From Loxodes magnus (Eukaryota; Ciliophora; Karyorelictea; Loxodida; Loxodidae), in contig CAMPDV010002054.1 of the NCBI GenBank assembly GCA_946699065.1, positions 1 through 64,000 on the forward strand: DNA of 64,000 nt. The letters run 5' to 3'. The notes beneath the pieces are model-generated. The model was not told the DNA's origin. It made no database searches and saw only the letters and a program-made list of their open reading frames with translations. How positions within the stretch are numbered: the stretch's first letter is position 1; each line of letters starts with the position of its first letter. The position numbers and the translations under genes are program-made. Below, in pieces: positions 39,501-64,000 of the stretch.

Positions 39501-42206
39501 ATGCTTTGAGAAGTAATTAGTATTTTAAAAAGTGAAGAAGTAAAGTAAGAAAAGAAGATAGAATTTCAGTTTTAAGGAGTATGCTTTGAGAATTAATAAG
39601 TATTTTAAAAAGTGAAGAAGTAAAGTAAGAAAAGAAGATAGAATTTCAGTTTAAAGGAGTATGCTTTGAGAAGTAATAAGTATTTTAAAAAGTGAAGAAG
39701 TAAAGTAAGAAAAGAAGATAGAATTTCAGTTTTAAGGAGTATGCTTTGAGAAGTAATAAGTATTTTAAAAAGTGAAGAAGTAAAGTAAGAAAAGAAGATA
39801 GAATTTTAGTTTTAAGGAGTATGCTTTGAGAAGTAATTAGTATTTTAAAAAGTGAAGAAGTAAAGTAAGAAAAGAAGATAGAATTTCAGTTTTAAGGAGT
39901 ACGCTTTGAGAAGTAATAAGTATTAAAAAAAGTGAAGAAGTAAAGTAAGAAAAGAAGATAGAATTTCAGTTTTAAGGAGTATGCTTTGAGAAGTAATAAG
40001 TATTTTAAAAAGTGAAGAAGTAAAGTAAGAAAAGAAGATAGAATTTCAGTTTTAAGGAGTATGCTTTGAGAATTAATAAGTATTTTAAAAAGTGAAGAAG
40101 TAAAGTAAGAAAAGAAGATAGAATTTCAGTTTTAAGGAGTACGCTTTGAGAAGTAATAAGTATTTTGAAAAGTGAATAGGTAAAGTAAGAAAAGAAGATA
40201 GAATTTCAGTTTTAAGGAGTATGCTTTGAGAAGTAATAAGTATTTTAAAAAGTGAAGAAGTAAAGTAAGAAAAGAAGATAGAATTTCAGTTTTAAGGAGT
40301 ATGCTTTGAGAAGTAATAAGTATTTAGAAAAGTGAATAAGTAAAGTAAGAAAAGAAGATAGAATTTCAGTTTTAAGGAGTATGCTTTGAGAAGTAATAAG
40401 TATTTTAAAAAGTGAATAAGTAAAGTAAGAAAAGAAGATAGAATTTCAGTTTTAAGGAGTATGCTTTGAGAAGTAATAAGTATTTAGAAAAGTGAATAAG
40501 TAAAGTAAGAAAAGAAGATAGAATTTCAGTTTTAAGGAGTATGCTTTGAGAAGTAATAAGTATTTTAAAAAGTGAATAGGTAAAGTAAGAAAAGAAGATA
40601 GAATTTCAGTTTTAAGGAGTATGCTTTGAGAAGTAATAAGTATTTAGAAAAGTGAATAAGTAAAGTAAGAAAAGAAGATAGAATTTCAGTTTTAAGGAGT
40701 ATGCTTTGAGAAGTAATAAGTATTTAGAAAAGTGAATAAGTAAAGTAAGAAAAGAAGATAGAATTTCAGTTTAAAGGAGTATGCTTTGAGAAGTAATAAG
40801 TATTTTAAAAAGTGAAGAAGTAAAGTAAGAAAAGAAGATAGAATTTCAGTTTTAAGGAGTATGCTTTGAGAAGTAATAAGTATTTAGAAAAGTGAATAAG
40901 TAAAGTAAGAAAAGAAGATAGAATTTCAGTTTTAAGGAGTATGCTTTGAGAAGTAATAAGTATTTAGAAAAGTGAATAAGTAAAGTAAGAAAAGAAGATA
41001 GAATTCCAGTTTTAAGGAGTATGCTTTGAGAAGTAATAAGTATTTAGAAAAGTGAAGAAGTAAAGTAAGAAAAGAAGATAGAATTTCAGTTTTAAGGAGT
41101 ATGCTTTGAGAAGTAATAAGTATTTAGAAAAGTGAAGAAGTAAAGTAAGAAAAGAAGATAGAATTTCAGTTTTAAGGAGTATGCTTTGAGAATTAATAAG
41201 TATTTTAAAAAGTGAAGAAGTAAAGTAAGAAAAGAAGATAGAATTTCAGTTTTAAGGAGTATGCTTTGAGAAGTAATAAGTATTTTAAAAAGTGAAGAAG
41301 TAAAGTAAGAAAAGAAGATAGAATTTCAGTTTTAAGGAGTATGCTTTGAGAATTAATAAGTATTTTAAAAAGTGAAGAAGTAAAGTAAGAAAAGAAGATA
41401 GAATTTCAGTTTTAAGGAGTACGCTTTGAGAAGTAATAAGTATTTTAAAAAGTGAAGAAGTAAAGTAAGAAAAGAAGATAGAATTTCAGTTTTAAGGAGT
41501 ATGCTTTGAGAAGTAATAAGTATTCAGAAAAGTGAAGAAGTAAAGTAAGAAAAGAAGATAGAATTTCAGTTTTAAGGAGTATGCTTTGAGAAGTAATAAG
41601 TATTTAGAAAAGTGAATAAGTAAAGTAAGAAAAGAAGATAGAATTTCAGTTTTAAGGAGTATGCTTTGAGAAGTAATAAGTATTTTAAAAAGTGAAGAAG
41701 TAAAGTAAGAAAAGAAGATAGAATTTTAGTTTTAAGGAGTATGCTTTGAGAAGTAATTAGTATTTTAAAAAGTGAAGAAGTAAAGTAAGAAAAGAAGATA
41801 GAATTTCAGTTTTAAGGAGTATGCTTTGAGAAGTAATAAGTATTTTAAAAAGTGAAGAAGTAAAGTAAGAAAAGAAGAAAGAATTTCAGTTTTAAGGAGT
41901 ACGCTTTGAGAAGTAATAAGTATTTTGAAAAGTGAAGAAGTAAAGTAAGAAAAGAAGATAGAATTTCAGTTTTAAGGAGTATGCTTTGAGAAGTAATAAG
42001 TATTTAGAAAAGTGAAGAAGTAAAGTAAGAAAAGAAGATAGAATTTCAGTTTTAAGGAGTATGCTTTGAGAAGTAATTAGTATTTTAAAAAGTGAAGAAG
42101 TAAAGTAAGAAAAGAAGATAGAATTTCAGTTTTAAGGAGTATGCTTTGAGAAGTAATAAGTATTTTGAAAAGTGAATAAGTAAAGTAAGAAAAGAAGATA
42201 GAATTT

Positions 42207-42246
42207 CAATTTTTGGGATTAAACTTTGAGTTGAAGAAGTAATAAG
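42207..42246 (+). repeat. Variant C monomer segment, copy 3
   Basis: Same segment, here preceded by a TTTTGAAA/77T monomer where copies 1 and 2 have AG/77G. It is therefore from a different, though related, block. Confidence 0.9.
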
Positions 42247-43729
42247 TATTTAGAAAAGTGAATAAGTAAAGTAAGAAAAGAAGATAGAATTTCAGTTTTA
42301 AGGAGTACGCTTTGAGAAGTAATAAGTATTTTAAAAAGTGAAGAAGTAAAGTAAGAAAAGAAGATAGAATTTCAGTTTTAAGGAGTATGCTTTGAGAAGT
42401 AATAAGTATTTTGAAAAGTGAATAGGTAAAGTAAGAAAAGAAGATAGAATTTCAGTTTTAAGGAGTATGCTTTGAGAAGTAATAAGTATTTTAAAAAGTG
42501 AAGAAGTAAAGTAAGAAAAGAAGATAGAATTTCAGTTTTAAGGAGTATGCTTTGAGAAGTAATTAGTATTTTAAAAAGTGAAGAAGTAAAGTAAGAAAAG
42601 AAGATAGAATTTCAGTTTTAAGGAGTATGCTTTGAGAAGTAATAAGTATTTTAAAAAGTGAAGAAGTAAAGTAAGAAAAGAAGATAGAATTTCAGTTTTA
42701 AGGAGTATGCTTTGAGAAGTAATAAGTATTTTAAAAAGTGAAGAAGTAAAGTAAGAAAAGAAGATAGAATTTCAGTTTTAAGGAGTATGCTTTGAGAAGT
42801 AATAAGTATTTAGAAAAGTGAAGAAGTAAAGTAAGAAAAGAAGATAGAATTTCAGTTTTAAGGAGTATGCTTTGAGAAGTAATAAGTATTTAGAAAAGTG
42901 AATAAGTAAAGTAAGAAAAGAAGATAGAATTTCAGTTTTAAGGAGTATGCTTTGAGAATTAATAAGTATTTTAAAAAGTGAAGAAGTAAAGTAAGAAAAG
43001 AAGATAGAATTTCAGTTTTAAGGAGTATGCTTTGAGAAGTAATAAGTATTTTAAAAAGTGAAGAAGTAAAGTAAGAAAAGAAGATAGAATTTCAGTTTTA
43101 AGGAGTATGCTTTGAGAAGTAATTAGTATTTTAAAAAGTGAATAAGTAAAGTAAGAAAAGAAGATAGAATTTTAGTTTTAAGGAGTATGCTTTGAGAAGT
43201 AATAAGTATTTTAAAAAGTGAAGAAGTAAAGTAAGAAAAGAAGATAGAATTTCAGTTTTAAGGAGTATGCTTTGAGAAGTAATAAGTATTTTAAAAAGTG
43301 AAGAAGTAAAGTAAGAAAAGAAGATAGAGTTTCAGTTTTAAGGAGTATGCTTTGAGAAGTAATAAGTATTTTAAAAAGTGAAGAAGTAAAGTAAGAAAAG
43401 AAGATAGAATTTCAGTTTTAAGGAGTATGCTTTGAGAAGTAATAAGTATTTAGAAAAGTGAAGAAGTAAAGTAAGAAAAGAAGATAGAATTTCAGTTTTA
43501 AGGAGTATGCTTTGAGAAGTAATAAGTATTTAGAAAAGTGAATAAGTAAAGTAAGAAAAGAAGATAGAATTTCAGTTTTAAGGAGTATGCTTTGAGAATT
43601 AATAAGTATTTTAAAAAGTGAAGAAGTAAAGTAAGAAAAGAAGATAGAATTTCAGTTTTAAGGAGTATGCTTTGAGAAGTAATAAGTATTTAGAAAAGTG
43701 AATAAGTAAAGTAAGAAAAGAAGATAGAA

Positions 43730-45270
43730 TTTCAGTTTTAAGGAGTATGCTTTGAGAAGTAATAAGTATTTTAAAAAGTGAAGAAGTAAAGTAAGAAAAG
43801 AAGATAGAGTTTCAGTTTTAAGGAGTATGCTTTGAGAAGTAATAAGTATTTTAAAAAGTGAAGAAGTAAAGTAAGAAAAGAAGATAGAATTTCAGTTTTA
43901 AGGAGTATGCTTTGAGAACTAATAAGTATTTTAAAAAGTGAATAAGTAAAGTAAGAAAAGAAGATAGAATTTCAGTTTAAAGGAGTATGCTTTGAGAAGT
44001 AATAAGTATTTTAAAAAGTGAAGAAGTAAAGTAAGAAAAGAAGATAGAATTTCAGTTTTAAGGAGTATGCTTTAGAAGTAATAAGTATTTTAAAAAGTGA
44101 AGAAGTAAAGTAAGAAAAGAAGATAGAATTTCAGTTTTAAGGAGTATGCTTTGAGAAGTAATAAGTATTTTGAAAAGTGAATAAGTAAAGTAAGAAAAGA
44201 AGATAGAATTTCAGTTTTAAGGAGTATGCTTTGAGAAGTAATTAGTATTTTAAAAAGTGAAGAAGTAAAGTAAGAAAAGAAGATAGAATTTCAGTTTTAA
44301 GGAGTATGCTTTGAGAAGTAATAAGTATTTTAAAAAGTGAAGAAGTAAAGTAAGAAAAGAAGATAGAATTTCAGTTTTAAGGAGTATGCTTTGAGAATTA
44401 ATAAGTATTTTAAAAAGTGAAGAAGTAAAGTAAGAAAAGAAGAAAGAATTTCAGTTTTAAGGAGTACGCTTTGAGAAGTAATAAGTATTTAGAAAAGTGA
44501 ATAGGTAAAGTAAGAAAAGAAGATAGAATTTCAGTTTAAGGAGTATGCTTTGAGAAGTAATTAGTATTTTAAAAAGTGAAGAAGTAAAGTAAGAAAAGAA
44601 GATAGAATTTCAGTTTTAAGGAGTATGCTTTGAGAAGTAATAAGTATTTAGAAAAGTGAATAAGTAAAGTAAGAAAAGAAGATAGAGTTTCAGTTTTAAG
44701 GAGTATGCTTTGAGAAGTAATAAGTATTTAGAAAAGTGAAGAAGTAAAGTAAGAAAAGAAGATAGAATTTCAGTTTTAAGGAGTATGCTTTGAGAAGTAA
44801 TAAGTATTTTGAAAAGTGAAGAAGTAAAGTAAGAAAAGAAGATAGAATTTCAGTTTTAAGGAGTATGCTTTGAGAAGTAATAAGTATTTAGAAAAGTGAA
44901 GAAGTAAAGTAAGAAAAGAAGATAGAATTTCAGTTTTAAGGAGTATGCTTTGAGAAGTAATTAGTATTTTAAAAAGTGAAGAAGTAAAGTAAGAAAAGAA
45001 GATAGAATTTCAGTTTTAAGGAGTATGCTTTGAGAAGTAATAAGTATTTTAAAAAGTGAAGAAGTAAAGTAAGAAAAGAAGAAAGAATTTCAGTTTTAAG
45101 GAGTACGCTTTGAGAAGTAATAAGTATTTTGAAAAGTGAAGAAGTAAAGTAAGAAAAGAAGATAGAATTTCAGTTTTAAGGAGTATGCTTTGAGAAGTAA
45201 TAAGTATTTAGAAAAGTGAATAAGTAAAGTAAGAAAAGAAGATAGAGTTTCAGTTTTAAGGAGTATGCTT
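43730..45270 (+). repeat. 1.5 kb dispersed block, copy 2
   Basis: Related to 26,500-28,040, with the GCTTTAGAAG monomer at 44,071. Because this lies inside the 8.1 kb duplication, a third copy follows at about 52.2-53.7 kb. Confidence 0.65.
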
Positions 45271-48200
45271 TGAGAAGTAATAAGTATTTTAAAAAGTGAA
45301 GAAGTAAAGTAAGAAAAGAAGATAGAATTTCAGTTTTAAGGAGTATGCTTTGAGAAATAATAAGTATTTAGAAAAGTGAATAAGTAAAGTAAGAAAAGAA
45401 GATAGAATTTCAGTTTTAAGGAGTATGCTTTGAGAAGTAATAAGTATTTTGAAAAGTGAAGAAGTAAAGTAAGAAAAGAAGATAGAATTTTAGTTTTAAG
45501 GAGTATGCTTTGAGAAGTAATGAGTATTTTAAAAAGTGAAGAAGTAAAGTAAGAAAAGAAGATAGAATTTCAGTTTTAAGGAGTATGCTTTGAGAAGTAA
45601 TGAGTATTTTAAAAAGTGAAGAAGTAAAGTAAGAAAAGAAGATAGAATTTCAGTTTTAAGGAGTATGCTTTGAGAAGTAATAAGTATTTAGAAAAGTGAA
45701 TAAGTAAAGTAAGAAAAGAAGATAGAATTTCAGTTTTAAGGAGTATGCTTTGAGAAGTAATTAGTATTTTAAAAAGTGAAGAAGTAAAGTAAGAAAAGAA
45801 GATAGAATTTCAGTTTTAAGGAGTATGCTTTGAGAAGTAATAAGTATTTTAAAAAGTGAAGAAGTAAAGTAAGAAAAGAAGATAGAATTTCAGTTTTAAG
45901 GAGTATGCTTTGAGAAATAATAAGTATTTAGAAAAGTGAATAAGTAAAGTAAGAAAAGAAGATAGAATTTCAGTTTTAAGGAGTACGCTTTGAGAAGTAA
46001 TAAGTATTTTGAAAAGTGAAGAAGTAAAGTAAGAAAAGAAGAAAGAATTTCAGTTTTAAGGAGTACGCTTTGAGAAGTAATAAGTATTTTGAAAAGTGAA
46101 GAAGTAAAGTAAGAAAAGAAGAAAGAATTTCAGTTTTAAGGAGTATGCTTTGAGAAGTAATAAGTATTTTAAAAAGTGAAGAAGTAAAGTAAGAAAAGAA
46201 GATAGAATTTCAGTTTTAAGGAGTATGCTTTGAGAAGTAATAAGTATTTAGAAAAGTAAATAAGTAAAGTAAGAAAAGAAGATAGAATTTCAGTTTTAAG
46301 GAGTATGCTTTGAGAAGTAATAAGTATTTTGAAAAGTGAATAAGTAAAGTAAGAAAAGAAGATAGAATTTCAGTTTTAAGGAGTATGCTTTGAGAAGTAA
46401 TAAGTATTTTGAAAAGTGAATAAGTAAAGTAAGAAAAGAAGATAGAATTTCAGTTTTAAGGAGTATGCTTTGAGAACTAATAAGTATTTTGAAAAGTGAA
46501 TAGGTAAAGTAAGAAAAGAAGATAGAATTTCAGTTTTAAGGAGTATGCTTTGAGAAGTAATAAGTATTTTAAAAAGTGAATAAGTAAAGTAAGAAAAGAA
46601 GATAGAATTTCAGTTTAAAGGAGTATGCTTTGAGAAGTAATAAGTATTTTAAAAAGTGAAGAAGTAAAGTAAGAAAAGAAGATAGAATTTCAGTTTTAAG
46701 GAGTATGCTTTGAGAAGTAATAAGTATTTTAAAAAGTGAAGAAGTAAAGTAAGAAAAGAAGATAGAATTTCAGTTTTAAGGAGTATGCTTTGAGAAGTAA
46801 TAAGTATTTAGAAAAGTGAATAAGTAAAGTAAGAAAAGAAGATAGAATTTCAGTTTTAAGGAGTATGCTTTGAGAAGTAATAAGTATTTTAAAAAGTGAA
46901 GAAGTAAAGTAAGAAAAGAAGATAGAATTTCAGTTTAAAGGAGTATGCTTTGAGAAGTAATAAGTATTTAGAAAAGTGAATAAGTAAAGTAAGAAAAGAA
47001 GATAGAATTTCAGTTTTAAGGAGTATGCTTTGAGAAGTAATAAGTATTTAGAAAAGTGAATAAGTAAAGTAAGAAAAGAAGATAGAATTTCAGTTTTAAG
47101 GAGTATGCTTTGAGAAGTAATAAGTATTTAGAAAAGTGAAGAAGTAAAGTAAGAAAAGAAGATAGAATTTCAGTTTTAAGGAGTATGCTTTGAGAAGTAA
47201 TAAGTATTTTAAAAAGTGAAGAAGTAAAGTAAGAAAAGAAGATAGAATTTCAGTTTTAAGGAGTATGCTTTGAGAACTAATAAGTATTTAGAAAAGTGAA
47301 TAAGTAAAGTAAGAAAAGAAGATAGAATTTCAGTTTTAAGGAGTATGCTTTGAGAAGTAATAAGTATTTTGAAAAGTGAAGAAGTAAAGTAAGAAAAGAA
47401 GATAGAATTTCAGTTTAAAGGAGTATGCTTTGAGAAGTAATAAGTATTTTAAAAAGTGAAGAAGTAAAGTAAGAAAAGAAGATAGAATTTCAGTTTTAAG
47501 GAGTATGCTTTAGAAGTAATAAGTATTTAGAAAAGTGAAGAAGTAAAGTAAGAAAAGAAGATAGAATTTCAGTTTTAAGGAGTATGCTTTGAGAAGTAAT
47601 AAGTATTTTAAAAAGTGAAGAAGTAAAGTAAGAAAAGAAGAAAGAATTTCAGTTTTAAGGAGTACGCTTTGAGAAGTAATAAGTATTTTGAAAAGTGAAG
47701 AAGTAAAGTAAGAAAAGAAGATAGAATTTCAGTTTTAAGGAGTATGCTTTGAGAAGTAATAAGTATTTAGAAAAGTGAAGAAGTAAAGTAAGAAAAGAAG
47801 ATAGAATTTCAGTTTTAAGGAGTATGCTTTGAGAAGTAATTAGTATTTTAAAAAGTGAAGAAGTAAAGTAAGAAAAGAAGATAGAATTTCAGTTTTAAGG
47901 AGTATGCTTTGAGAAGTAATAAGTATTTTAAAAAGTGAAGAAGTAAAGTAAGAAAAGAAGAAAGAATTTCAGTTTTAAGGAGTACGCTTTGAGAAGTAAT
48001 TAGTATTTTAAAAAGTGAATAAGTAAAGTAAGAAAAGAAGATAGAATTTTAGTTTTAAGGAGTATGCTTTGAGAAGTAATAAGTATTTTAAAAAGTGAAG
48101 AAGTAAAGTAAGAAAAGAAGATAGAATTTCAGTTTTAAGGAGTATGCTTTGAGAAGTAATAAGTATTTTAAAAAGTGAAGAAGTAAAGTAAGAAAAGAAG

Positions 48201-50689
48201 ATAGAGTTTCAGTTTTAAGGAGTATGCTTTGAGAAGTAATAAGTATTTTAAAAAGTGAAGAAGTAAAGTAAGAAAAGAAGATAGAATTTCAGTTTTAAGG
48301 AGTATGCTTTGAGAAGTAATAAGTATTTAGAAAAGTGAAGAAGTAAAGTAAGAAAAGAAGATAGAATTTCAGTTTTAAGGAGTATGCTTTGAGAAGTAAT
48401 AAGTATTAAAAAAAGTGAAGAAGTAAAGTAAGAAAAGAAGATAGAATTTCAGTTTTAAGGAGTATGCTTTGAGAAGTAATAAGTATTTTAAAAAGTGAAG
48501 AAGTAAAGTAAGAAAAGAAGATAGAATTTCAGTTTTAAGGAGTATGCTTTGAGAATTAATAAGTATTTTAAAAAGTGAAGAAGTAAAGTAAGAAAAGAAG
48601 ATAGAATTTCAGTTTTAAGGAGTACGCTTTGAGAAGTAATAAGTATTTTGAAAAGTGAATAGGTAAAGTAAGAAAAGAAGATAGAATTTCAGTTTTAAGG
48701 AGTATGCTTTGAGAAGTAATAAGTATTTTAAAAAGTGAAGAAGTAAAGTAAGAAAAGAAGATAGAATTTCAGTTTTAAGGAGTATGCTTTGAGAAGTAAT
48801 AAGTATTTAGAAAAGTGAATAAGTAAAGTAAGAAAAGAAGATAGAATTTCAGTTTTAAGGAGTATGCTTTGAGAAGTAATAAGTATTTTAAAAAGTGAAT
48901 AAGTAAAGTAAGAAAAGAAGATAGAATTTCAGTTTTAAGGAGTATGCTTTGAGAAGTAATAAGTATTTAGAAAAGTGAATAAGTAAAGTAAGAAAAGAAG
49001 ATAGAATTTCAGTTTTAAGGAGTATGCTTTGAGAAGTAATAAGTATTTTAAAAAGTGAATAGGTAAAGTAAGAAAAGAAGATAGAATTTCAGTTTTAAGG
49101 AGTATGCTTTGAGAAGTAATAAGTATTTAGAAAAGTGAATAAGTAAAGTAAGAAAAGAAGATAGAATTTCAGTTTTAAGGAGTATGCTTTGAGAAGTAAT
49201 AAGTATTTAGAAAAGTGAATAAGTAAAGTAAGAAAAGAAGATAGAATTTCAGTTTAAAGGAGTATGCTTTGAGAAGTAATAAGTATTTTAAAAAGTGAAG
49301 AAGTAAAGTAAGAAAAGAAGATAGAATTTCAGTTTTAAGGAGTATGCTTTGAGAAGTAATAAGTATTTAGAAAAGTGAATAAGTAAAGTAAGAAAAGAAG
49401 ATAGAATTTCAGTTTTAAGGAGTATGCTTTGAGAAGTAATAAGTATTTAGAAAAGTGAATAAGTAAAGTAAGAAAAGAAGATAGAATTCCAGTTTTAAGG
49501 AGTATGCTTTGAGAAGTAATAAGTATTTAGAAAAGTGAAGAAGTAAAGTAAGAAAAGAAGATAGAATTTCAGTTTTAAGGAGTATGCTTTGAGAAGTAAT
49601 AAGTATTTAGAAAAGTGAAGAAGTAAAGTAAGAAAAGAAGATAGAATTTCAGTTTTAAGGAGTATGCTTTGAGAATTAATAAGTATTTTAAAAAGTGAAG
49701 AAGTAAAGTAAGAAAAGAAGATAGAATTTCAGTTTTAAGGAGTATGCTTTGAGAAGTAATAAGTATTTTAAAAAGTGAAGAAGTAAAGTAAGAAAAGAAG
49801 ATAGAATTTCAGTTTTAAGGAGTATGCTTTGAGAATTAATAAGTATTTTAAAAAGTGAAGAAGTAAAGTAAGAAAAGAAGATAGAATTTCAGTTTTAAGG
49901 AGTACGCTTTGAGAAGTAATAAGTATTTTGAAAAGTGAAGAAGTAAAGTAAGAAAAGAAGATAGAATTTCAGTTTTAAGGAGTATGCTTTGAGAAGTAAT
50001 AAGTATTCAGAAAAGTGAAGAAGTAAAGTAAGAAAAGAAGATAGAATTTCAGTTTTAAGGAGTATGCTTTGAGAAGTAATAAGTATTTAGAAAAGTGAAT
50101 AAGTAAAGTAAGAAAAGAAGATAGAATTTCAGTTTTAAGGAGTATGCTTTGAGAAGTAATAAGTATTTTAAAAAGTGAAGAAGTAAAGTAAGAAAAGAAG
50201 ATAGAATTTTAGTTTTAAGGAGTATGCTTTGAGAAGTAATTAGTATTTTAAAAAGTGAAGAAGTAAAGTAAGAAAAGAAGATAGAATTTCAGTTTTAAGG
50301 AGTATGCTTTGAGAAGTAATAAGTATTTTAAAAAGTGAAGAAGTAAAGTAAGAAAAGAAGAAAGAATTTCAGTTTTAAGGAGTACGCTTTGAGAAGTAAT
50401 AAGTATTTTGAAAAGTGAAGAAGTAAAGTAAGAAAAGAAGATAGAATTTCAGTTTTAAGGAGTATGCTTTGAGAAGTAATAAGTATTTAGAAAAGTGAAG
50501 AAGTAAAGTAAGAAAAGAAGATAGAATTTCAGTTTTAAGGAGTATGCTTTGAGAAGTAATTAGTATTTTAAAAAGTGAAGAAGTAAAGTAAGAAAAGAAG
50601 ATAGAATTTCAGTTTTAAGGAGTATGCTTTGAGAAGTAATAAGTATTTTGAAAAGTGAATAAGTAAAGTAAGAAAAGAAGATAGAATTT

Positions 50690-50729
50690 CAATTTTTGGG
50701 ATTAAACTTTGAGTTGAAGAAGTAATAAG
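50690..50729 (+). repeat. Variant C monomer segment, copy 4
   Basis: Same segment, exactly 8,483 bp after copy 3, carried by the 8.1 kb duplication. Confidence 0.9.
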
Positions 50730-52559
50730 TATTTAGAAAAGTGAATAAGTAAAGTAAGAAAAGAAGATAGAATTTCAGTTTTAAGGAGTACGCTTTGAGA
50801 AGTAATAAGTATTTTAAAAAGTGAAGAAGTAAAGTAAGAAAAGAAGATAGAATTTCAGTTTTAAGGAGTATGCTTTGAGAAGTAATAAGTATTTTGAAAA
50901 GTGAATAGGTAAAGTAAGAAAAGAAGATAGAATTTCAGTTTTAAGGAGTATGCTTTGAGAAGTAATAAGTATTTTAAAAAGTGAAGAAGTAAAGTAAGAA
51001 AAGAAGATAGAATTTCAGTTTTAAGGAGTATGCTTTGAGAAGTAATTAGTATTTTAAAAAGTGAAGAAGTAAAGTAAGAAAAGAAGATAGAATTTCAGTT
51101 TTAAGGAGTATGCTTTGAGAAGTAATAAGTATTTTAAAAAGTGAAGAAGTAAAGTAAGAAAAGAAGATAGAATTTCAGTTTTAAGGAGTATGCTTTGAGA
51201 AGTAATAAGTATTTTAAAAAGTGAAGAAGTAAAGTAAGAAAAGAAGATAGAATTTCAGTTTTAAGGAGTATGCTTTGAGAAGTAATAAGTATTTAGAAAA
51301 GTGAAGAAGTAAAGTAAGAAAAGAAGATAGAATTTCAGTTTTAAGGAGTATGCTTTGAGAAGTAATAAGTATTTAGAAAAGTGAATAAGTAAAGTAAGAA
51401 AAGAAGATAGAATTTCAGTTTTAAGGAGTATGCTTTGAGAATTAATAAGTATTTTAAAAAGTGAAGAAGTAAAGTAAGAAAAGAAGATAGAATTTCAGTT
51501 TTAAGGAGTATGCTTTGAGAAGTAATAAGTATTTTAAAAAGTGAAGAAGTAAAGTAAGAAAAGAAGATAGAATTTCAGTTTTAAGGAGTATGCTTTGAGA
51601 AGTAATTAGTATTTTAAAAAGTGAATAAGTAAAGTAAGAAAAGAAGATAGAATTTTAGTTTTAAGGAGTATGCTTTGAGAAGTAATAAGTATTTTAAAAA
51701 GTGAAGAAGTAAAGTAAGAAAAGAAGATAGAATTTCAGTTTTAAGGAGTATGCTTTGAGAAGTAATAAGTATTTTAAAAAGTGAAGAAGTAAAGTAAGAA
51801 AAGAAGATAGAGTTTCAGTTTTAAGGAGTATGCTTTGAGAAGTAATAAGTATTTTAAAAAGTGAAGAAGTAAAGTAAGAAAAGAAGATAGAATTTCAGTT
51901 TTAAGGAGTATGCTTTGAGAAGTAATAAGTATTTAGAAAAGTGAAGAAGTAAAGTAAGAAAAGAAGATAGAATTTCAGTTTTAAGGAGTATGCTTTGAGA
52001 AGTAATAAGTATTTAGAAAAGTGAATAAGTAAAGTAAGAAAAGAAGATAGAATTTCAGTTTTAAGGAGTATGCTTTGAGAATTAATAAGTATTTTAAAAA
52101 GTGAAGAAGTAAAGTAAGAAAAGAAGATAGAATTTCAGTTTAAAGGAGTATGCTTTGAGAAGTAATAAGTATTTTAAAAAGTGAAGAAGTAAAGTAAGAA
52201 AAGAAGATAGAATTTCAGTTTTAAGGAGTATGCTTTGAGAAGTAATAAGTATTTTAAAAAGTGAAGAAGTAAAGTAAGAAAAGAAGATAGAGTTTCAGTT
52301 TTAAGGAGTATGCTTTGAGAAGTAATAAGTATTTTAAAAAGTGAAGAAGTAAAGTAAGAAAAGAAGATAGAATTTCAGTTTTAAGGAGTATGCTTTGAGA
52401 ACTAATAAGTATTTTAAAAAGTGAATAAGTAAAGTAAGAAAAGAAGATAGAATTTCAGTTTAAAGGAGTATGCTTTGAGAAGTAATAAGTATTTTAAAAA
52501 GTGAAGAAGTAAAGTAAGAAAAGAAGATAGAATTTCAGTTTTAAGGAGTATGCTTTAGA

Positions 52560-55500
52560 AGTAATAAGTATTTAAAAAGTGAAGAAGTAAAGTAAGAAAA
52601 GAAGATAGAATTTCAGTTTTAAGGAGTATGCTTTGAGAAGTAATAAGTATTTTGAAAAGTGAATAAGTAAAGTAAGAAAAGAAGATAGGAATTTCAGTTT
52701 TAAGGAGTATGCTTTCAGAGAAGCTTTAAGTAATAGTATTTTAAAAAGTGAAGAAGTAAAGTAAGAAAAGAAGATAGAATTTCAGTTTTAAGGAGTATGC
52801 TTTGAGAAGTAATAAGTATTTTAAAAAGTGAAGAAGTAAAGTAAGAAAAGAAGAAAGAATTTCAGTTTTAAGGAGTACGCTTTGAGAAGTAATAAGTATT
52901 TAGAAAAGTGAATAGGTAAAGTAAGAAAAGAAGATAGAATTTCAGTTTTAAGGAGTATGCTTTGAGAAGTAATAGTATTTTGAAAAGTGAAGAAGTAAAG
53001 TAAGAAAAGAAGATAGAATTTCAGTTTTAAGGAGTATGCTTTTGAGAAGTAATAAGTATTTAGAAAAGTGAATAAGTAAAGTAAGAAAAGAAGATAGAGT
53101 TTCAGTTTTAAGGAGTATGCTTTGAGAAGTAATAAGTATTTAGAAAAGTGAAGAAGTAAAGTAAGAAAAGAAGATAGAATTTCAGTTTTAAGGAGTATGC
53201 TTTGAGAAGTAATAAGTATTTTGAAAAGTGAAGAAGTAAAGTAAGAAAAGAAGATAGAATTTCAGTTTTAAGGAGTATGCTTTGAGAAGTAATAAGTATT
53301 TAGAAAAGTGAAGAAGTAAAGTAAGAAAAGAAGATAGAATTTCAGTTTTAAGGAGTATGCTTTGAGAAGTAATTAGTATTTTAAAAAGTGAAGAAGTAAA
53401 GTAAGAAAAGAAGATAGAATTTCAGTTTTAAGGAGTATGCTTTGAGAAGTAATAAGTATTTTAAAAAGTGAAGAAGTAAAGTAAGAAAAGAAGAAAGAAT
53501 TTCAGTTTTAAGGAGTACGCTTTGAGAAGTAATAAGTATTTTGAAAAGTGGAAGAAGTAAAGTAAGAAAAGAAGATAGAATTTCAGTTTTAAGGAGTATG
53601 CTTTGAGAAGTAATAAGTATTTAAAATAGTGAATAAGTAAAGTAAGAAAAGAAGATAGAGTTTCAGTTTTAAGGAGTATGCTTTGAGAAGTAATAAGTAT
53701 TTTAAAAAGTGAAGAAGTAAAGTAAGAAAAGAAGATAGAATTTCAGTTTTAAGGAGTATGCTTTGAGAAATAATAAGTATTTAGAAAAGTGAATAAGTAA
53801 AGTAGAAAAGAAGATAGAATTTCAGTTTTAAGGAGTATGCTTTGAGAAGTAATAAGTATTTTGAAAAGTGAAGAAGTAAAGTAAGAAAAGAAGATAGAAT
53901 TTTAGTTTTAAGGAGTATGCTTTGAGAAGTAATGAGTATTTAAAAGTGAAGAAGTAAAGTAAGAAAGAAGATAGAATTTCAGTTTAAGGAGTATGCTTTG
54001 AGAAGTAATGAGTATTTTAAAAAGTGAAGAAGTAAAGTAAGAAAAGAAGATAGAATTTCAGTTTTAAGGAGTATGCTTTGAGAAGTAATAAGTATTTAGA
54101 AAAGTGAATAAGTAAAGTAAGAAAAGAAGATAGAATTTCAGTTTTAAGGAGTATGCTTTGAGAAGTAATTAGTATTTTAAAAAGTGAAGAAGTAAAGTAA
54201 GAAAAGAAGATAGAATTTCAGTTTTAAGGAGTATGCTTGAGAAGTAATAAGTATTTTAAAAAGTGAAGAAGTAAAGTAAGAAAAGAAGATAGAATTTCAG
54301 TTTTAAGGAGTATGCTTTGAGAAATAATAAGTATTTAGAAAAGTGAATAAGTAAAGTAAGAAAAGAAGATAGAATTTCAGTTTTAAGGAGTACGCTTTGA
54401 GAAGTAATAAGTATTTTGAAAAGTGAAGAAGTAAAGTAAGAAAAGAAGAAAGAATTTCAGTTTTAAGGAGTACGCTTTGAGAAGTAATAAGTATTTTGAA
54501 AAGTGAAGAAGTAAAGTAAGAAAAGAAGAAAGAATTTCAGTTTTAAGGAGTATGCTTTGAGAAGTAATAAGTATTTTAAAAAGTGAAGAAGTAAAGTAAG
54601 AAAAGAAGATAGAATTTCAGTTTTAAGGAGTATGCTTTGAGAAGTAATAAGTATTTAGAAAAGTAAATAAGTAAAGTAAGAAAAGAAGATAGAATTTCAG
54701 TTTTAAGGAGTATGCTTTGAGAAGTAATAAGTATTTTGAAAAGTGAATAAGTAAAGTAAGAAAAGAAGATAGAATTTCAGTTTTAAGGAGTATGCTTTGA
54801 GAAGTAATAAGTATTTTTGAAAAGTGAATAAGTAAAGTAAGAAAAGAAGATAGAATTCAGTTTTAAGGAGTATGCTTTGAGAACTAATAAGTATTTTGAA
54901 AAGTGAATAGGTAAAGTAAGAAAAGAAGATAGAAATTCAGTTTTAAGGAGTATGCTTTGAGAAGTAATAAGTATTTTAAAAAGTGAATAAGTAAAGTAAG
55001 AAAAGAAGATAGAATTTCAGTTTAAAGGAGTATGCTTTGAGAAGTAATAAGTATTTTAAAAAGTGAAGAAGTAAAGTAAGAAAAGAAGATAGAATTTCAG
55101 TTTTAAGGAGTATGCTTTGAGAAGTAATAAGTATTTTAAAAAGTGAAGAAGTAAAGTAAGAAAAGAAGATAGAATTTCAGTTTTAAGGAGTATGCTTTGA
55201 GAAGTAATAAGTATTTAGAAAAGTGAATAAGTAAAGTAAGAAAAGAAGATAGAATTTCAGTTTTAAGGAGTATGCTTTGAGAAGTAATAAGTATTTTAAA
55301 AAGTGAAGAAGTAAAGTAAGAAAAGAAGATAGAATTTCAGTTTAAAGGAGTATGCTTTGAGAAGTAATAAGTATTTAGAAAAGTGAATAAGTAAAGTAAG
55401 AAAAGAAGATAGAATTTCAGTTTTAAGGAGTATGCTTTGAGAAGTAATAGTATTTAGAAAAGTGAATAAAGTAAAGTAAGAAAAGAAGATAGAATTTCAG

Positions 55501-58500
55501 TTTTAAGGAGTATGCTTTGAGAAGTATTAAGTATTTAGAAAAGTGAAGAAGTAAAGTAAGAAAAGAAGATAGAATTTCAGTTTTAAGGAGTATGCTTTGA
55601 GAAGTAATAAGTATTTTAAAAAGTGAAGAAGTAAAGTAAGAAAAGAAGATAGAATTTCAGTTTTAAGGAGTATGCTTTGAGAACTAATAAGTATTTAGAA
55701 AAGTGAATAAGTAAGTAAGAAAAGAAGATAGAATTTCAGTTTAAGGAGTATGCTTTAGAAGTAATAAGTATTTAGAAAAGTGAAGAAGTAAAGTAAGAAA
55801 GAAGATAGAATTTCAGTTTAAAGGAGTATGCTTTGAGAAGTAAATAAGTATTTTAAAAAGTGAAGAAGTAAAGTAAGAAAAGAAGATAGAATTTCAGTTT
55901 TAAGGAGTATGCTTTAGAAGTAATAAGTATTTAGAAAAGTGAAGAAGTAAAGTAAGAAAAGAAGATAGAATTTCAGTTTTAAGGGTATGCTTTGAGAAGT
56001 AATAAGTATTTAAAAAGTGAAGAAGTAAAGTAAGAAAAGAAGAAAGAATTTCAGTTTTAAGGAGTACGCTTTGAGAAGTAATAAGTATTTTGAAAAGTGA
56101 AGAAGTAAAGTAAGAAAAGAAGATAGAATTTCAGTTTTAAGGAGTATGCTTTGAGAAGTAATAAGTATTTAGAAAAGTGAAGAAGTAAAGTAAGAAAAGG
56201 AAGATAGAATTTCAGTTTTAAGGAGTATGCTTTGAGAAGTAATTAGTATTTTAAAAAGTGAAGAAGTAAAGTAAGAAAAGAAGATAGAATTTCAGTTTTA
56301 AGGAGTATGCTTTGAGAAGTAATAAGTATTTTAAAAAGTGAAGAAGTAAAGTAAGAAAAGAAGAAAGAATTTCAGTTTTAAGGAGTACGCTTTGAGAAGT
56401 AATAAGTATTTTGAAAAGTGAAGAAGTAAAGTAAGAAAAGAAGAAAGAATTTCAGTTTAAAGGAGTATGCTTTAGAAGTAATAAGTATTTTGAAAAGTGA
56501 AGAAGTAAAGTAAGAAAAGAAGATAGAATTTCAGTTTTAAGGAGTATGCTTGAGAAGTAATAAGTATTTTAAAAAGTGAAGAAGTAAAGTAAGAAAAGAA
56601 GATAGAATTTCAGTTTTAAGGAGTATGCTTTGAGAAGTAATAAGTATTTTAAAAAGTGAAGAAGTAAAGTAAGAAAAGAAGATAGAGTTTCAGTTTTAAG
56701 GAGTATGCTTTGAGAACTAATAAGTATTTGAAAAGTGAAGAAGTAAAGTAAGAAAAGAAGATAGAATTTCAGTTTTAAGGAGTATGCTTTGAGAAGTAAT
56801 TAGTATTTAAAAAAGTGAAGAAGTAAAAGTAAGAAAGAAGATAGAATTTCAGTTTTAAGGAGTATGCTTTGAGAAGTAATAAGTATTTTAAAAAGTGAAG
56901 AAGTAAAGTAAGAAAAGAAGATAGAATTTCAGTTTTAAGGAGTATGCTTTGAGAAGTAATTAGTATTTTAAAAAAGTGAAGAAGTAAAGTAAGAAAAGAA
57001 GATAGAATTTCAGTTTTAAGGAGTATGCTTTGAGAAGTAATAAGTATTTTAAAAAGTGAAGAAGTAAAGTAAGAAAAGAAGAAAGAATTTCAGTTTTAAG
57101 GAGTACGCTTTGAGAAGTAATAAGTATTTTGAAAAGTGAAGAAGTAAAGTAAGAAAAGAAGAAAGAATTTCAGTTTAAAGGAGTATGCTTTAGAAGTAAT
57201 AAGTATTTTGAAAAGTGAAGAAGTAAAGTAAGAAAAGAAGATAGAATTTCAGTTTTAAGGAGTATGCTTTAGAAGTAATAAGTATTTTAAAAAGTGAAGA
57301 AGTAAAGTAAGAAAAGAAGATAGAATTTCAGTTTAAAGGAGTATGCTTTGAGAAGTAATAAGTATTTTAAAAAGTGAAGAAGTAAAGTAAGAAAAGAAGA
57401 TAGAGTTTCAGTTTTAAGGAGTATGCTTTGAGAACTAATAAGTATTTTGAAAAGTGAAGAAGTAAAGTAAGAAAAGAAGATAGAATTTCAGTTTTAAGGA
57501 GTATGCTTTGAGAAGTAATTAGTATTTTAAAAAGTGAAGAAGTAAAGTAAGAAAAGAAGATAGAATTTCAGTTTTAAGGAGTATGCTTTGAGAAGTAATA
57601 AGTATTTTAAAAAGTGAAGAAGTAAAGTAAGAAAAGAAGATAGAATTTCAGTTTTAAGGAGTATGCTTTGAGAAATAATAAGTATTTAGAAAAGTGAATA
57701 AGTAAAGTAAGAAAAGAAGATAGAATTTCAGTTTTAAGGAGTATGCTTTGAGAAGTAATAAGTATTTTAAAAAGTGAAGAAGTAAAGTAAGAAAAGAAGA
57801 TAGAATTTCAGTTTTAAGGAGTATGCTTTGAGAAGTAATAAGTATTTAGAAAAGTGAAGAAGTAAAGTGAGAAAAGAAGATAGAATTTCAGTTTTAAGGA
57901 GTATGCTTGAGAAGTAATAAGTATTTAGAAAAGTGAATAAGTAAAGTAAGAAAAGAAGATAGAATTTCAGTTTAAAGAGTATGCTTTGAGAAGTAATAAG
58001 TATTTTAAAAAGTGAAGAAGTAAAGTAAGAAAAGAAGATAGAATTTCAGTTTTAAGGAGTATGCTTTGAGAAGTAATAAGTATTTAGAAAAGTGAATAAG
58101 TAAAGTAGAAAAGAAGATAGAATTTCAGTTTAAAGGAGTATGCTTTGAGAAATAATAAGTATTTTAAAAAGTGAAGAAGTAAAGTAAGAAAAGAAGATAG
58201 AGTTTCAGTTTTAAGGAGTATGCTTTGAGAACTAATAAGTATTTTGAAAAGTGAAGAAGTAAAGTAAGAAAAGAAGATAGAATTTCAGTTTTAAGGAGTA
58301 TGCTTTGAGAACTAATAAGTATTTAGAAAAGTGAATAAGTAAAGTAAGAAAAGAAGATAGAATTTCAGTTTTAAGGAGTATGCTTTAGAAGTAATAAGTA
58401 TTTAGAAAAGTGAAGAAGTAAAGTAAGAAAAGAAGATAGAATTTCAGTTTTAAGGAGTATGCTTTGAGAAGTAATAAGTATTTAAAAAGTGAAGAAGTAA

Positions 58501-60650
58501 AGTAAGAAAAGAAGAAAGAATTTCAGTTTTAAGGAGTACGCTTTGAGAAGTAATAAGTATTTTGAAAAGTGAAGAAGTAAAGTAAGAAAAGAAGATAGAA
58601 TTTCAGTTTTAAGGAGTATGCTTTGAGAACTAATAAGTATTTAGAAAAGTGAATAAGTAAAGTAAGAAAAGAAGATAGAATTTCAGTTTTAAGGAGTATG
58701 CTTTGAGAAGTAATAAGTATTTTAAAAAGTGAAGAAGTAAAGTAAGAAAAGAAGAAAGAATTTCAGTTTTAAGGAGTACGCTTTGAGAAGTAATAAGTAT
58801 TTTGAAAAGTGAAGAAGTAAAGTAAGAAAAGAAGATAGAATTCAGTTTTAAGGAGTATGCTTTGAGAAGTAATAAGTATTTAGAAAAGTGAATAAGTAAA
58901 GTAAGAAAAGAAGATAGAATTTCAGTTTTAAGGAGTATGCTTTGAGAACTAATAAGTATTTAGAAAAGTGAATAAGTAAAGTAAGAAAAGAAGATAGAAT
59001 TTCAGTTTTAAGGAGTATGCTTTAGAAGTAATAAGTATTTAGAAAAGTGAAGAAGTAAAGTAAGAAAAGAAGATAGAATTTCAGTTTTAAGGAGTATGCT
59101 TTGAGAAGTAATAAGTATTTAGAAAAGTGAAGAAGTAAAGTAAGAAAAGAAGATAGAATTTCAGTTTAAAGGAGTACGCTTTGAGAAGTAATAAGTATTT
59201 AGAAAAGTGAATAAGTAAAGTAAGAAAAGAAGATAGAATTTCAGTTTAAGGAGTATGCTTTGAGAAGTAATAAGTATTTTAAAAAGTGAAGAAGTAAAGT
59301 AAGAAAAGAAGATAGAATTTCAGTTTTAAGGAGTATGCTTTGAGAAGTAATTAGTATTTTAAAAAGTGAAGAAGTAAAGTAAGAAAAGAAGATAGAATTT
59401 CAGTTTTAAGGAGTATGCTTTGAGAAGTAATAAGTATTTTAAAAAGTGAAGAAGTAAAGTAAGAAAGAAGAAAGAATTTCAGTTTTAAGGAGTACGCTTT
59501 GAGAAGTAATAAGTATTTTGAAAAGTGAAGAAGTAAAGTAAGAAAAGAAGAAAGAATTTCAGTTTAAAGGAGTATGCTTTGAGAAATAATAAGTATTTAG
59601 AAAAGTGAATAAGTAAAGTAAGAAAAGAAGATAGAATTTCAGTTTTAAGGAGTATGCTTTGAGAAGTAATAAGTATTTTAAAAAGTGAAGAAGTAAAGTA
59701 AGAAAAGAAGATAGAATTTCAGTTTTAGGAGTATGCTTTGAGAATTAATAAGTATTTTAAAAAAGTGAAGAAGTAAAGTAAGAAAAGAAGATAGAATTTC
59801 AGTTTTAAGGAGTATGCTTTGAGAAATAATAAGTATTTTGAAAAGTGAATAAGTAAAGTAAGAAAAGAAGATAGAATTTCAGTTTTAAGGAGTATGCTTT
59901 GAGAAATAATTATAATTTAGAATAGTGAAGAAGTAAAGTAAGAAAAGAAGAAAGAATTTCAGTTTTAAGGAGTATGCTTTGAGAAGTAATAAGTATTTAG
60001 AAAAGTGAAGAAGTAAAGTAAGAAAAGAAGAAAGAATTTCAGTTTTAAGGAGTATGCTTTGAGAAGTAATAAGTATTTAGAAAAGTGAAGAAGTAAAGTA
60101 AGAAAAGAAGATAGAATTTCAGTTTTAAGGAGTATGCTTTGAGAAGTAATAAGTATTTAGAAAAGTGAAGAAGTAAAGTAAGAAAAGAAGATAGAATTTC
60201 AGTTTAAAGGAGTATGCTTTGAGAAGTAATAAGTATTTTAAAAAGTGAAGAAGTAAAGTAAGAAAAGAAGATAGAATTTCAGTTTTAAGGAGTATGCTTT
60301 AGAAGTAATAAGTATTTTAAAAAGTGAAGAAGTAAAGTAAGAAAAGAAGATAGAATTTCAGTTTTAAGGGTATGCTTTGAGAAGTAATAAGTATTTGAAA
60401 AGTGAATAAGTAAAGTAAGAAAAGAAGATAGAATTTCAGTTTTAAGGAGTATGCTTTGAGAAGTAATTAGTATTTTAAAAAGTGAAGAAGTAAAAGTAAG
60501 AAAAGAAGATAGAATTTCAGTTTTAAGGAGTATGCTTTGAGAAGTAATAAGTATTTTAAAAGTGAAGAAGTAAAGTAAGAAAAGAAGATAGAATTTCAGT
60601 TTTAAGGAGTATGCTTTGAGAATTAATAAGTATTTTAAAAAGTGAGAAGT
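52560..60650 (+). repeat. Indel-rich part of the array
   Basis: Roughly 40 isolated indels by my reading in about 100 monomers, mostly in A or T runs. Examples are GTATTTAAAAAGTG at 52,568, GATAGGAATTT at 52,685, GTGGAAGAAG at 53,549, GTAGAAAAG at 53,804, GAATTCAG at 54,852, AAGGGTATG at 55,981, GTAAAAGTAAG at 56,823 and AAAGAGTATG at 57,973. By contrast, 15,003-26,840 shows no net indel in 148 monomers. Beneath the noise the monomer order follows copy 1 of the 8.1 kb duplication up to about 56,390. Two nine-monomer blocks repeat with an offset of about 718 bp (TACGC at 56,386 and 57,104). The pattern fits uncorrected long-read sequence better than mutation. Confidence 0.8.
52681..52740 (+). 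repeat. Scrambled monomer
   Basis: After GATAGGAATTTCAG the text reads GCTTTCAGAGAAGCTTTAAG then TAATAGTATT, where the counterpart near 44,221 has GCTTTGAGAAGTAATTAG. About 11 extra bases and several changes fall in one monomer. It is the largest local disturbance in the indel-rich part. It may be a read error or a microrearrangement; nothing suggests a functional insert. Confidence 0.6.
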
Positions 60651-60651
60651 A
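57331..60651 (+). repeat. Left arm of the 3.3 kb palindrome
   Basis: Mirror partner of 60,679-64,000. I compared the 16 monomers nearest the junction one by one (66-67, 77, 53, 57-58, 33, 42, 19 and deletions such as CTTTAGAAG). The inverted arm shows the same series in reverse order at each. The ends also pair, with GTTTAAAGGA at 57,331 and its complement at 63,991. Private differences are single-base indels on one arm or the other. Confidence 0.9.
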
Positions 60652-60690
60652 AGTAATTCTTTCTCTTAGTCTTACTTTACTTCTTCACTT
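60645..60690. other. Strand-switch junction (palindrome centre)
   Basis: The plus-oriented array stops after AGTGAGAAGTAAGTAA and the minus-oriented array is established by CTTACTTTACTTCTTCAC. The text between, roughly 60,655-60,670, is imperfect monomer sequence. Pairing mirror-image variants puts the centre at 60,665: 59,911 with 61,419, 57,331 with 64,000 and 60,641 with 60,689 all have a midpoint of about 60,665. Both flanks carry the AATTAATAAG form of the monomer with TTTTAAAA at 63-70, so the same monomer is met on the way in and the way out. This is either a chromosomal fold-back inverted duplication or a template-plus-complement chimeric read built into the assembly. The second looks more likely because of the surrounding indel noise. 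Confidence 0.9.
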
Positions 60691-63600
60691 TTTAAAATAC
60701 TTATTAATTCTCAAAGCATACTCCTTAAAACTGAAATTCTATCTTCTTTTCTTACTTTACTTCTTCACTTTTTAAAATACTTATACTTCTCAAAGCATAC
60801 TCCTTAAAACTGAAATTCTATCTTCTTTTCTTACTTTACTTCTTCACTTTTTAAAATACTAATTACTTCTCAAAGCATACTCCTTAAAACTGAAATTCTA
60901 TCTTCTTTTCTTACTTTACTTATTCACTTTTCAAAATACTTATTACTTCTCAAAGCATACTCCTTAAAAACTGAAATTCTATCTTCTTTTCTTACTTTAC
61001 TTCTTCACTTTTTAAAATACTTATTACTTCTAAAGCATACTCTTAAAACTGAAATTCTATCTTCTTTTCTTACTTTACTTCTTCACTTTTTAAAATACTT
61101 ATTACTTCTCAAAGCATACTCCTTTAAACTGAAATTCTATCTTCTTTTCTTACTTTACTTCTTCACTTTTCTAAATACTTATTACTTCTCAAAGCATACT
61201 CCTTAAAACTGAAATCTATCTTCTTTTCTTACTTTACTTCTTCACTTTTCTAAATACTTATTACTTCTCAAAGCATACTCCTTAAAACTGAAATTCTTTC
61301 TTCTTTTCTTACTTTACTTCTTCACTTTTCTAAATACTTATTACTTCTCAAAGCATACTCCTTAAAACTGAAATTCTTTCTTCTTTTCTTACTTTACTTC
61401 TTCACTATTCTAAATTATAATTATTTCTCAAAGCATACTCCTTAAAACTGAAATTCTATCTTCTTTTCTTACTTTACTTATTCACTTTTCAAAATACTTA
61501 TTATTTCTCAAAGCATACTCCTTAAAACTGAAATTCTATCTTCTTTTTCTTACTTTACTTCTTCACTTTTTAAAATTACTTATTAATTCTCAAAGCATAC
61601 TCCTTAAAACTGAAATTCTATCTTCTTTTCTTACTTTACTTCTTCACTTTTAAAATACTTATTACTTCTCAAAGCATACTCCTTAAAACTGAAATTCTAT
61701 CTTCTTTTCTTACTTTACTATTCACTTTTCTAAATACTTATTATTTCTCAAGCATACTCCTTTAAACTGAAATTCTTTCTTCTTTTCTTACTTTACTTCT
61801 TCACTTTTCAAAATACTTATTACTTCTCAAAGCGTACTCCTTAAAACTGAAATTCTTTCTTCTTTTCTTACTTTACTTCTTCACTTTTTAAAATACTTAT
61901 TACTTCTCAAAGCATACTCCTTAAAACTGAATTCTATCTTCTTTTCTTACTTTACTTCTTCACTTTTTAAAATACTAATTACTTCTCAAAGCATACTCCT
62001 TAAAACTGAAATTCTATCTTCTTTTCTTACTTTACTTCTTCACTTTTTAAAATACTTATTACTTCTCAAAGCATACTCCTTAAAACTGAAATTCTATCTC
62101 TTTTTCTTACTTTACTTATTCACTTTTCTAAATACTTATTACTTCTCAAAGCGTACTCCTTTAAACTGAAATTCTATCTTCTTTTCTTACTTTACTTCTT
62201 CACTTTTCTAAATACTTATTACTTCTCAAAGCATACTCCTTAAAACTGAAATTCTATCTTCTTTTCTTACTTTACTTCTTCACTTTTCTAAATACTTATT
62301 ACTTCTAAAGCATACTCCTTAAAACTGAAATTCTATCTTCTTTTCTTACTTTACTTATTCACTTTTCTAAATACTTATTAGTTCTCAAAGCATACTCCTT
62401 AAAACTGAAATTCTATCTTCTTTTCTTACTTTACTTATTCACTTTTCTAAATACTTATTACTTCTCAAAGCATACTCCTTAAAACTGGAAATTCTATCTT
62501 CTTTTCTTACTTTACTTCTTCACTTTTCTAAATACTTATTACTTCTCAAAGCGTACTCCTTAAAACTGAAATTCTTCTTCTTTTCTTACTTTACTTCTTC
62601 ACTTTTTAAAATACTTATTACTTCTCAAAGCATACTCCTTAAAACTGAAATTCTATCTTCTTTTCTTACTTTACTTATTCACTTTTCTAAATACTTATTA
62701 GTTCTCAAAGCATACTCCTTAAAACTGAAATTCTATCTTCTTTTCTTACTTTACTTCTTCACTTTTCAAAATACTTATTACTTCTCAAAGCGTACTCCTT
62801 AAAACTGAAATTCTTTCTTCTTTTCTTACTTTACTTCTTCACTTTTTAAAATACTTATTACTTCTCAAAGCATACTCCTTAAAACTGAAATTCTATCTTC
62901 TTTTCTTACTTACTTCTTCACTTTTCTAAATACTTATTACTTCTAAAGCATACTCCTTAAAACTGAAATTCTATCTTCTTTTCTTACTTTACTTATTCAC
63001 TTTTCTAAATACTTATTAGTTCTCAAAGCATACTCCTTAAAACTGAATTCTATCTTCTTTTCTTACTTTACTTCTTCACTTTTCAAAATACTTATTAGTT
63101 CTCAAAGCATACTCCTTAAAACTGAAACCTATCTTCTTTTCTTACTTTACTTCTTCACTTTTTAAAATACTTATTATTTCTCAAAGCATACTCCTTTAAA
63201 CTGAAATTCTATCTTCTTTTCTTACTTTACTTATTCACTTTTCTAAATACTTATTACTTCTCAAAGCATACTCCTTAAAACTGAAATTCTATCTTCTTTT
63301 CTTACTTTACTTCTTCACTTTTTAAAATACTTATTACTTCTCAAAGCATACTCCTTTAAACTGAAATTCTATCTTCTTTTCTTACTTTACTTATTCACTT
63401 TTCTAAATACTTATTACTTCTCAAAGCATACTCCTTAAAACTGAAATTCTATCTTCTTTTCTCACTTACTTCTTCACTTTTCTAAATACTTATTACTTCT
63501 CAAAGCATACTCCTTAAAACTGAAATTCTATCTTCTTTTCTTACTTTACTTCTTCACTTTTTAAAATACTTATTACTTCTCAAAGCATACTCCTTAAAAC

Positions 63601-64000
63601 TGAAATTCTATCTTCTTTTCTTACTTTACTTATTCACTTTTCTAAATACTTATTATTTCTCAAAGCATACTCCTTAAAACTGAAATTCTATCTTCTTTTC
63701 TTACTTTACTTCTTCACTTTTTAAAATACTTATTACTTCTCAAAGCATACTCCTTAAAACTGAAATTCTATCTTCTTTTCTTACTTTACTTCTTCACTTT
63801 TTAAAATACTAATTACTTCTCAAAGCATACTCCTTAAAACTGAAATTCTATCTTCTTTTCTTACTTTACTTCTTCACTTTTCAAAATACTTATTAGTTCT
63901 CAAAGCATACTCCTTAAAACTGAAACTCTATCTTCTTTTCTTACTTTACTTCTTCACTTTTTAAAATACTTATTACTTCTCAAAGCATACTCCTTTAAAC
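60679..64000 (-). repeat. 80-bp satellite DNA array, inverted arm
   Basis: The same monomer continues here as its reverse complement, about 41-42 copies running to the window edge. Typical plus-strand text is now CTTACTTTACTTCTTCACTT and CAAAGCATACTCC. The order of variant monomers is the mirror image of 57,331-60,650. For example, the unusual monomer at about 59,901-59,926 (AATAATTATAATTTAG) reappears reverse-complemented at about 61,405-61,426, and the block GTTTAAAGGA at 57,331-57,340 pairs with 63,991-64,000. The arm contains many isolated one-base indels not shared with its partner. See the junction entry for interpretation. Confidence 0.96.

Follow-up and report, generated by a model that had tools for sequence, protein, structure and literature searches.

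The window, i.e., the whole stretch of DNA analysed here, comprises the first 64,000 bp of the Loxodes magnus contig C2054, which is 75,834 bp long and belongs to an assembly of 705,730,643 bases in 7,843 contigs. The entire contig is built from a single 80-bp satellite, and TRF showed that this satellite changes strand at approximately 60,656, lying on the + strand before this point and on the opposite strand from 60,655. The array at 1–60,656 is purine-rich on the + strand and was split into approximately 758 monomers. The Rfam and tRNA scans of the window returned no matches, and Rfam was also blank on 11 further loci of the assembly. The macronuclear assembly has been described as 706 Mbp with 231 Mbp of tandem repeats and the table 27 genetic code, and it was produced from PacBio circular consensus (HiFi) reads at approximately 20–30× coverage, with Falcon for assembly and Racon for polishing under a mapping-quality filter (PMC11441545). 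In contig C1, we observed a gene that contains a START domain and stays open when TAA and TAG are translated as glutamine and TGA is translated as tryptophan, in agreement with this code.

The palindrome and its markers

The contig mirrors itself about a centre at 60,665, and the mirror extends to the contig end. The left arm (45,541–60,665, + strand) and the right arm (60,666–75,834, − strand, with 60,666–64,000 lying inside the window) were 15,125 and 15,169 bp long, respectively, so that the outer end of the left arm is the mirror of the contig end. When the two arms were aligned, 15,029 of 15,247 columns were identical. The sequence-only reading had placed a palindrome at this centre with arms of at least 3.3 kb reaching the edge of the window; the centre was confirmed, and the full arm measures 15.2 kb. 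The same reading had proposed to follow the mirror beyond 64,000 and beyond the counterpart of 52,560. The symmetry persisted to 75,834: we compared 30 windows (400 bp each) along the right arm with their mirror places and counted 0–13 edits in each as far as the contig end. It also passed the counterpart of 52,560, with a single loss of 67 bp in the left arm at 52,718–52,722.

The 142 differences between the arms were 13 substitutions, 127 plain indels (122 of one base), and 2 mixed events. The right arm had lost 74 stretches, each of one base, and the left arm had lost 53, of which 48 were of one base, two were of 2 bases, and one each was of 3, 19, and 48 bases. The 19- and 48-base losses are together the 67-bp loss mentioned above, which falls in an irregular 89-bp unit (52,647–52,722, + strand).

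The mirror was fixed by rare words. A 33-base marker has only two exact copies in the whole assembly, at 59,898–59,930 (+) and at 61,400–61,432 (−), and the midpoint of these copies is 60,665. The 16-mer inside it, at 59,905–59,920 (+) and 61,410–61,425 (−), has the same midpoint; it had been regarded as a private marker, and its symmetric placement held, but it occurs at 57 places across the assembly and is not private genome-wide. We found 138 22-mers that were single on the left tail and single, in inverted form, on the right arm. The midpoints of 76 of them lay at 60,663–60,666 and those of the other 62 lay elsewhere, and we took the latter as words made similar by one-base indels.

The order of the variant monomers was identical on the two arms. 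When the monomer signatures of the right arm were scored against the array, the offset of 463 scored 0.455, the offsets of 568 and 569 scored 0.455 and 0.453, respectively, and all other offsets scored at most 0.34. The first of these is a direct duplication of 106 monomers, and the other two are the two parts of the mirror, which are split by the lost monomer. Because the direct duplication scores equally, these registers are not decisive for the mirror by themselves, and the mirror was settled by the unique 33-mer at symmetric positions. Counted in register, the mirror had 6 substitutions in 4,509 columns, compared with 82 in 2,247 columns out of register. This contrast and the unique 33-mer bear out the earlier claim that the likeness of the arms goes beyond that of an independent inverted array.

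The direct duplication joins 40,800–44,005 to 49,283–52,488 with a shift of 106 monomers (8,483 bp), and it had 5 substitutions over five blocks of approximately 640 bp; past these blocks, the left copy is one monomer short. Shorter direct duplications with shifts of 40, 48, 71, and 119 monomers were also identical or nearly so.

Base accuracy and the turn

The share of monomers bearing an indel relative to the consensus was 24 of 195 in 1–15,500, 12 of 461 in 15,501–52,488, 41 of 102 in 52,489–60,620, and 86 of 191 in the right arm. The share jumps at 52,489 and then holds its level up to the contig end, which gives a tail of low base accuracy at 52,489–64,000 that continues to 75,834. Indel noise had been noted on both arms. 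This was found throughout the right arm, but in the left arm only from 52,489, and the outer part of the left arm (45,541–52,488) was clean. In four direct duplications elsewhere in the contig (1.4–3.0 kb), the numbers of indels were 0, 0, 0, and 4; these duplications were chosen as runs of equal substitution pattern, and their zero substitutions carry no weight. At the head of the contig (1–15,500), indel-bearing monomers were commoner than in the middle. Thirteen of the deletions before 15,000 removed one particular G of the monomer, and part of the head indels may be true variation.

Judging from these counts, the differences between the arms look like base errors in a 23.3-kb stretch supported by few reads, and 52,489–75,834 behaves as if it were one read of low quality. 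Falcon contigs are presumably stitched from single reads. Together with the step at 52,489, this suggests that the step is a boundary between reads, and the low read support of the tail is what we infer from it. The irregular 89-bp unit at the start of the noisy tail may be a splice fault from read to read.

The turn itself is a garbled stretch (60,629–60,690). Within the first 20 bp of the centre, 8 of 21 columns differed, compared with 1 of 21 in the next, both in the consensus sequence, so that the drop in accuracy known from fold-back artefacts is also seen here at the consensus level. The unpaired bases at the turn numbered 39 without gaps and approximately 13–19 when one-base gaps were allowed, as judged by eye. 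A simply missed sequencing adapter was considered and fits poorly, because the unpaired stretch seems too short for an intact adapter and, by eye, resembles noisy satellite.

Strand reversals in other satellite contigs

From among the satellite contigs listed, 13 of the 14 others of known length were sampled with 400 bp at both ends, with C292 left out and C2926 treated apart, and five more were sampled at the start only. The strand changed between the two ends in seven of the 13 (C2945, C5393, C2537, C3956, C3823, C3194, and C2103). No strand change was seen at the sampled points in C4119, C6765, C2141, C1942, C7007, and C6110, and paired reversals could escape this sampling. Another tandem repeat family lies near the start of the 386-kb contig C292, where a 61-residue open frame occurs at least five identical times in 1–8,000.

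Nine reversals were examined, namely those of the seven contigs above, of the window contig, and of C2926, which was reached by a search favouring turns. In seven of the nine, including the window, the repeat array was in mirror order, mostly with very few substitutions. Mirror profiles of 200 bp are weak in a repeat array, and several contigs fitted equally well elsewhere, so long alignments with an out-of-register control were used instead, spanning 4–5 kb per side for C3956, C3823, C3194, and C2103 and 1.5 kb for C2537. In register, the substitutions and indels were 3 and 11 in 4,992 columns for C3956, 6 and 33 in 3,977 columns for C3823, 34 and 29 in 3,905 columns for C3194, 1 and 23 in 1,505 columns for C2537, and 0 and 32 in 4,107 columns for C2103. 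Out of register, the substitutions were 107 in 2,482, 53 in 1,920, 105 in 1,852, 35 in 728, and 88 in 2,025 columns, respectively.

Two of these contigs show possible signs of stitching between reads. In C3194, the first 1.99 kb from the turn held zero substitutions and the following 1.8 kb held 34, as expected where another read takes over. In C2103, all five 300-bp windows at 11.4–12.9 kb from the turn found their mirror with 0–5 edits and one midpoint. Six windows at approximately 20–22 kb from the turn had 1–15 edits and scattered midpoints, like the controls (2–17 edits), and the contig continues there. The reach of the mirror is thus 13–20 kb in C2103, and it is at least 15.2 kb in the window contig.

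C5393 was mirrored with a register offset of 400 bp, and one divergent segment of 2.1 kb carried 57 of its 58 substitutions. At the turn of C5393, approximately 400 bp (15,398–15,796, five monomers) have no mirror partner, although the sequence forms a clean hairpin locally at this turn. C2926 and C2945 had no long mirror, though C2945 does show local pairing at its turn (57 of 60 places). C2926 carries related satellites: an array of the 92-bp type occupies 20–30 kb and gives way near 30 kb to a homogeneous unit of 240 bp (81 + 81 + 78), and the array of this unit reverses its strand at 47,031, again with no long mirror.

An exact hairpin-turn pattern in one monomer phase was found at 24 places in 23 contigs, and the reversed control gave 0. 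These 24 turns had 17 distinct sequences, the commonest of which occurred 5 times, with 0–11 unpaired bases at the centre; two of them (C3956 and C5393) were followed beyond the pattern itself. A conserved inversion-site sequence was not found among these same-phase turns. In C2500, two such turns, at 8,713 and 59,589, have the same 30-base sequence on opposite strands.

The nine compared turns occupy several monomer phases, and those of C3823 and C2103 have an 11-base loop in common. Six of the nine map to two 4-bp inverted repeats within the monomer. For all nine together, comparing the mean stem score with that of random phases gave P = 0.0005, in a post hoc test for which we placed the centres of C2537 and C2054 by eye. 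The turn of the window had a stem score of 0 and lies away from any native inverted repeat. The distance of the nine turns from the nearer contig end was 8.8–25.9 kb in contigs of 24–103 kb, being 14–26 kb for six of them and 8.8–15.2 kb for the other three, including the window. A clustering of turns at contig ends, which is expected were every fold a last read, was not seen.

Origin of the folds

We believe that the palindrome is probably a fold-back read carried into the assembly and not a fixed feature of the chromosome, and from the sequence we give this reading a probability of roughly three in four. A native satellite fragment of approximately 15.1 kb would have had one end closed as a hairpin, for example when a single-stranded 3' end snapped back, was filled in, and was ligated. 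Such a hairpin-capped molecule in a circular PacBio library would offer a single recognisable adapter, and its consensus read would span both strands, giving approximately 30.3 kb folded at the midpoint. If the read began at 45,541 and was placed last in the contig by the assembler, then 75,834, where the contig stops, would mirror the distal end of the insert, and 52,489–75,834 would have poor base accuracy because the doubled read alone supplied it. Single molecules folding back at short native inverted repeats would account for the varied turns, the arms nearly free of substitutions, the indel noise, and the insert-like reach, and the fold-backs most likely arose during library preparation. 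The sequence-only reading had leaned towards an artefact over a fold-back duplication, and this is supported by the arm differences dominated by indels, the error step at 52,489, the garbled turn, the recurrent folds with varied turns, and the limited mirror reach in C2103.

Fold-back reads are known from long-read sequencing. Fold-back reads made up 0.55–0.6% of Nanopore genomic reads, whereas virtually none were reported in the PacBio HiFi (Revio) sample described in the same account (PMC12870357), and palindromic reads of human rDNA have been described as single-molecule fold-backs, also on Nanopore (PMC8559705). Like these, the fold in C2054 has halves that are reverse complements of each other about a central turn, as if the two strands of one molecule were mirrored; the turn lies in the middle of the presumed read, the accuracy of the consensus is poor there, and the turns vary from case to case. 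Unlike these artefacts, which are mainly known from Nanopore and nearly absent from that HiFi sample, the folds here are in the contigs of a HiFi assembly. For short-read libraries, the PDSM model describes a fold-back during end repair at short natural inverted repeats (PMC10908179). The resulting chimeras would resemble our case in folding at short native inverted repeats, to which six of the nine turns map, and in arising in library preparation, but they come from short reads, whereas the arms here measure 15 kb, presumably because a whole duplex insert would form them. A literature search for Loxodes together with palindromes found no account.

Several points weigh against an artefact: fold-back reads were virtually absent from the HiFi sample of PMC12870357, the window's turn is off the native inverted repeats, C5393 has a register offset at its turn, and C2926 and C2945 lack long mirrors. 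The frequency of the reversals (7 of 13) and the position of most turns, which are not close to contig ends, also count against an artefact. An occasional artefact predicts neither, and the reading as a folded read therefore needs an assembler that favours doubled reads; long, oversized reads may well have been favoured. In C2103, where the contig runs past the end of the mirror, other reads must have been joined on.

The frequent reversals and the turns remote from contig ends also suit palindromes that are inherited, so that the satellite arrays of this ciliate would truly contain long inverted pairs, as do the macro-dyad symmetries of Tribolium, a biological counterpart verified on raw HiFi reads in the original study (PMC13081366). 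In both HiFi assemblies, satellite arrays change strand and form palindrome-like structures that measure from kilobases to tens of kilobases, and C2054, with its strand change and long inverted subarrays, has the form of a macro-dyad. However, the inversion sites of Tribolium are reported as conserved (98–99% within types) and confirmed on raw reads (PMC13081366), whereas the folds of Loxodes are known from the assembly alone and the 24 turns have 17 sequences. Inherited palindromes of mixed age should also carry substitutions between their arms, but four of the five compared showed 0–6, and neither the jump in errors at 52,489 nor the sharp drop in identity 1.99 kb from the turn of C3194 is explained. 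We consider this origin quite unlikely.

An origin within the cell at a younger stage is an unlikely alternative as well. Breaks in the macronuclear satellite would leave ends that snap back and are then sealed or copied. The products would be hairpin-capped somatic molecules or inverted duplications of very recent date, differing between molecules. The near-zero divergence of the arms suits very young events, the turns at native repeats (six of nine) and the variety of turn sequences suit a snap-back in the cell as well as in the tube, and Loxodes macronuclei are described as non-dividing (PMC11441545). Against this, no result favours the cell over the library, and the many base errors of the tail suggest that few reads support the turn of the window. 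Jointly, we assign about a fifth of the probability to inherited palindromes and fold-backs in vivo. One form of the latter is very unlikely in our estimate, namely that macronuclear satellite arrays of Loxodes terminate in covalently closed hairpins in vivo or are sealed in this form after breakage. Neither telomeres nor telomerase were detected in Loxodes magnus, as far as the account in PMC11441545 goes, which makes satellite hairpin ends a candidate cap for the ends of chromosomes or fragments, and reads rounding such ends would resemble the observed folds. The poor tail accuracy at the turn of the window speaks against the many reads that a chromosome-end hairpin should have there, insofar as the consensus sequence reflects read number.

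Two further explanations need no folded molecule. The assembler could have joined the two strands through a false overlap with no read being folded, and the authors of the assembly do suspect misassembly of low-complexity repeats (PMC11441545). In our satellite samples, however, the purine share was approximately 0.63–0.72 on one strand and 0.28–0.36 on the other. Because the satellite is so strongly one-sided, there is no long overlap between the strands, and with nothing to join, the turn would have to lie within a read, so a false overlap is highly improbable. That a second, unrelated array of this satellite happens to adjoin the first in inverted orientation, sharing only the likeness of the family, has practically negligible probability. 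C2926 may be such a case, since among the nearest 42 of its 240-bp units, 3 on the left departed from the consensus, compared with 19 of 42 on the right, in another order. For the window, this explanation is refuted by the unique marker common to mirror positions, and the in-register substitution count and the repeated monomer series also speak against it.

If the folded-read interpretation is correct, a published satellite-rich ciliate assembly, with 231 of its 706 Mbp in tandem repeats (PMC11441545), carries folded contigs, and claims on inverted satellite arrays, array size, and hairpins that are drawn from the assembly need a check at the level of reads. Fold-back reads would then seem to occur in HiFi data too, and assembly would seem able to enrich them. 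If the folds instead form in the cell, they would bear on how DNA ends are handled in a ciliate without detected telomeres.
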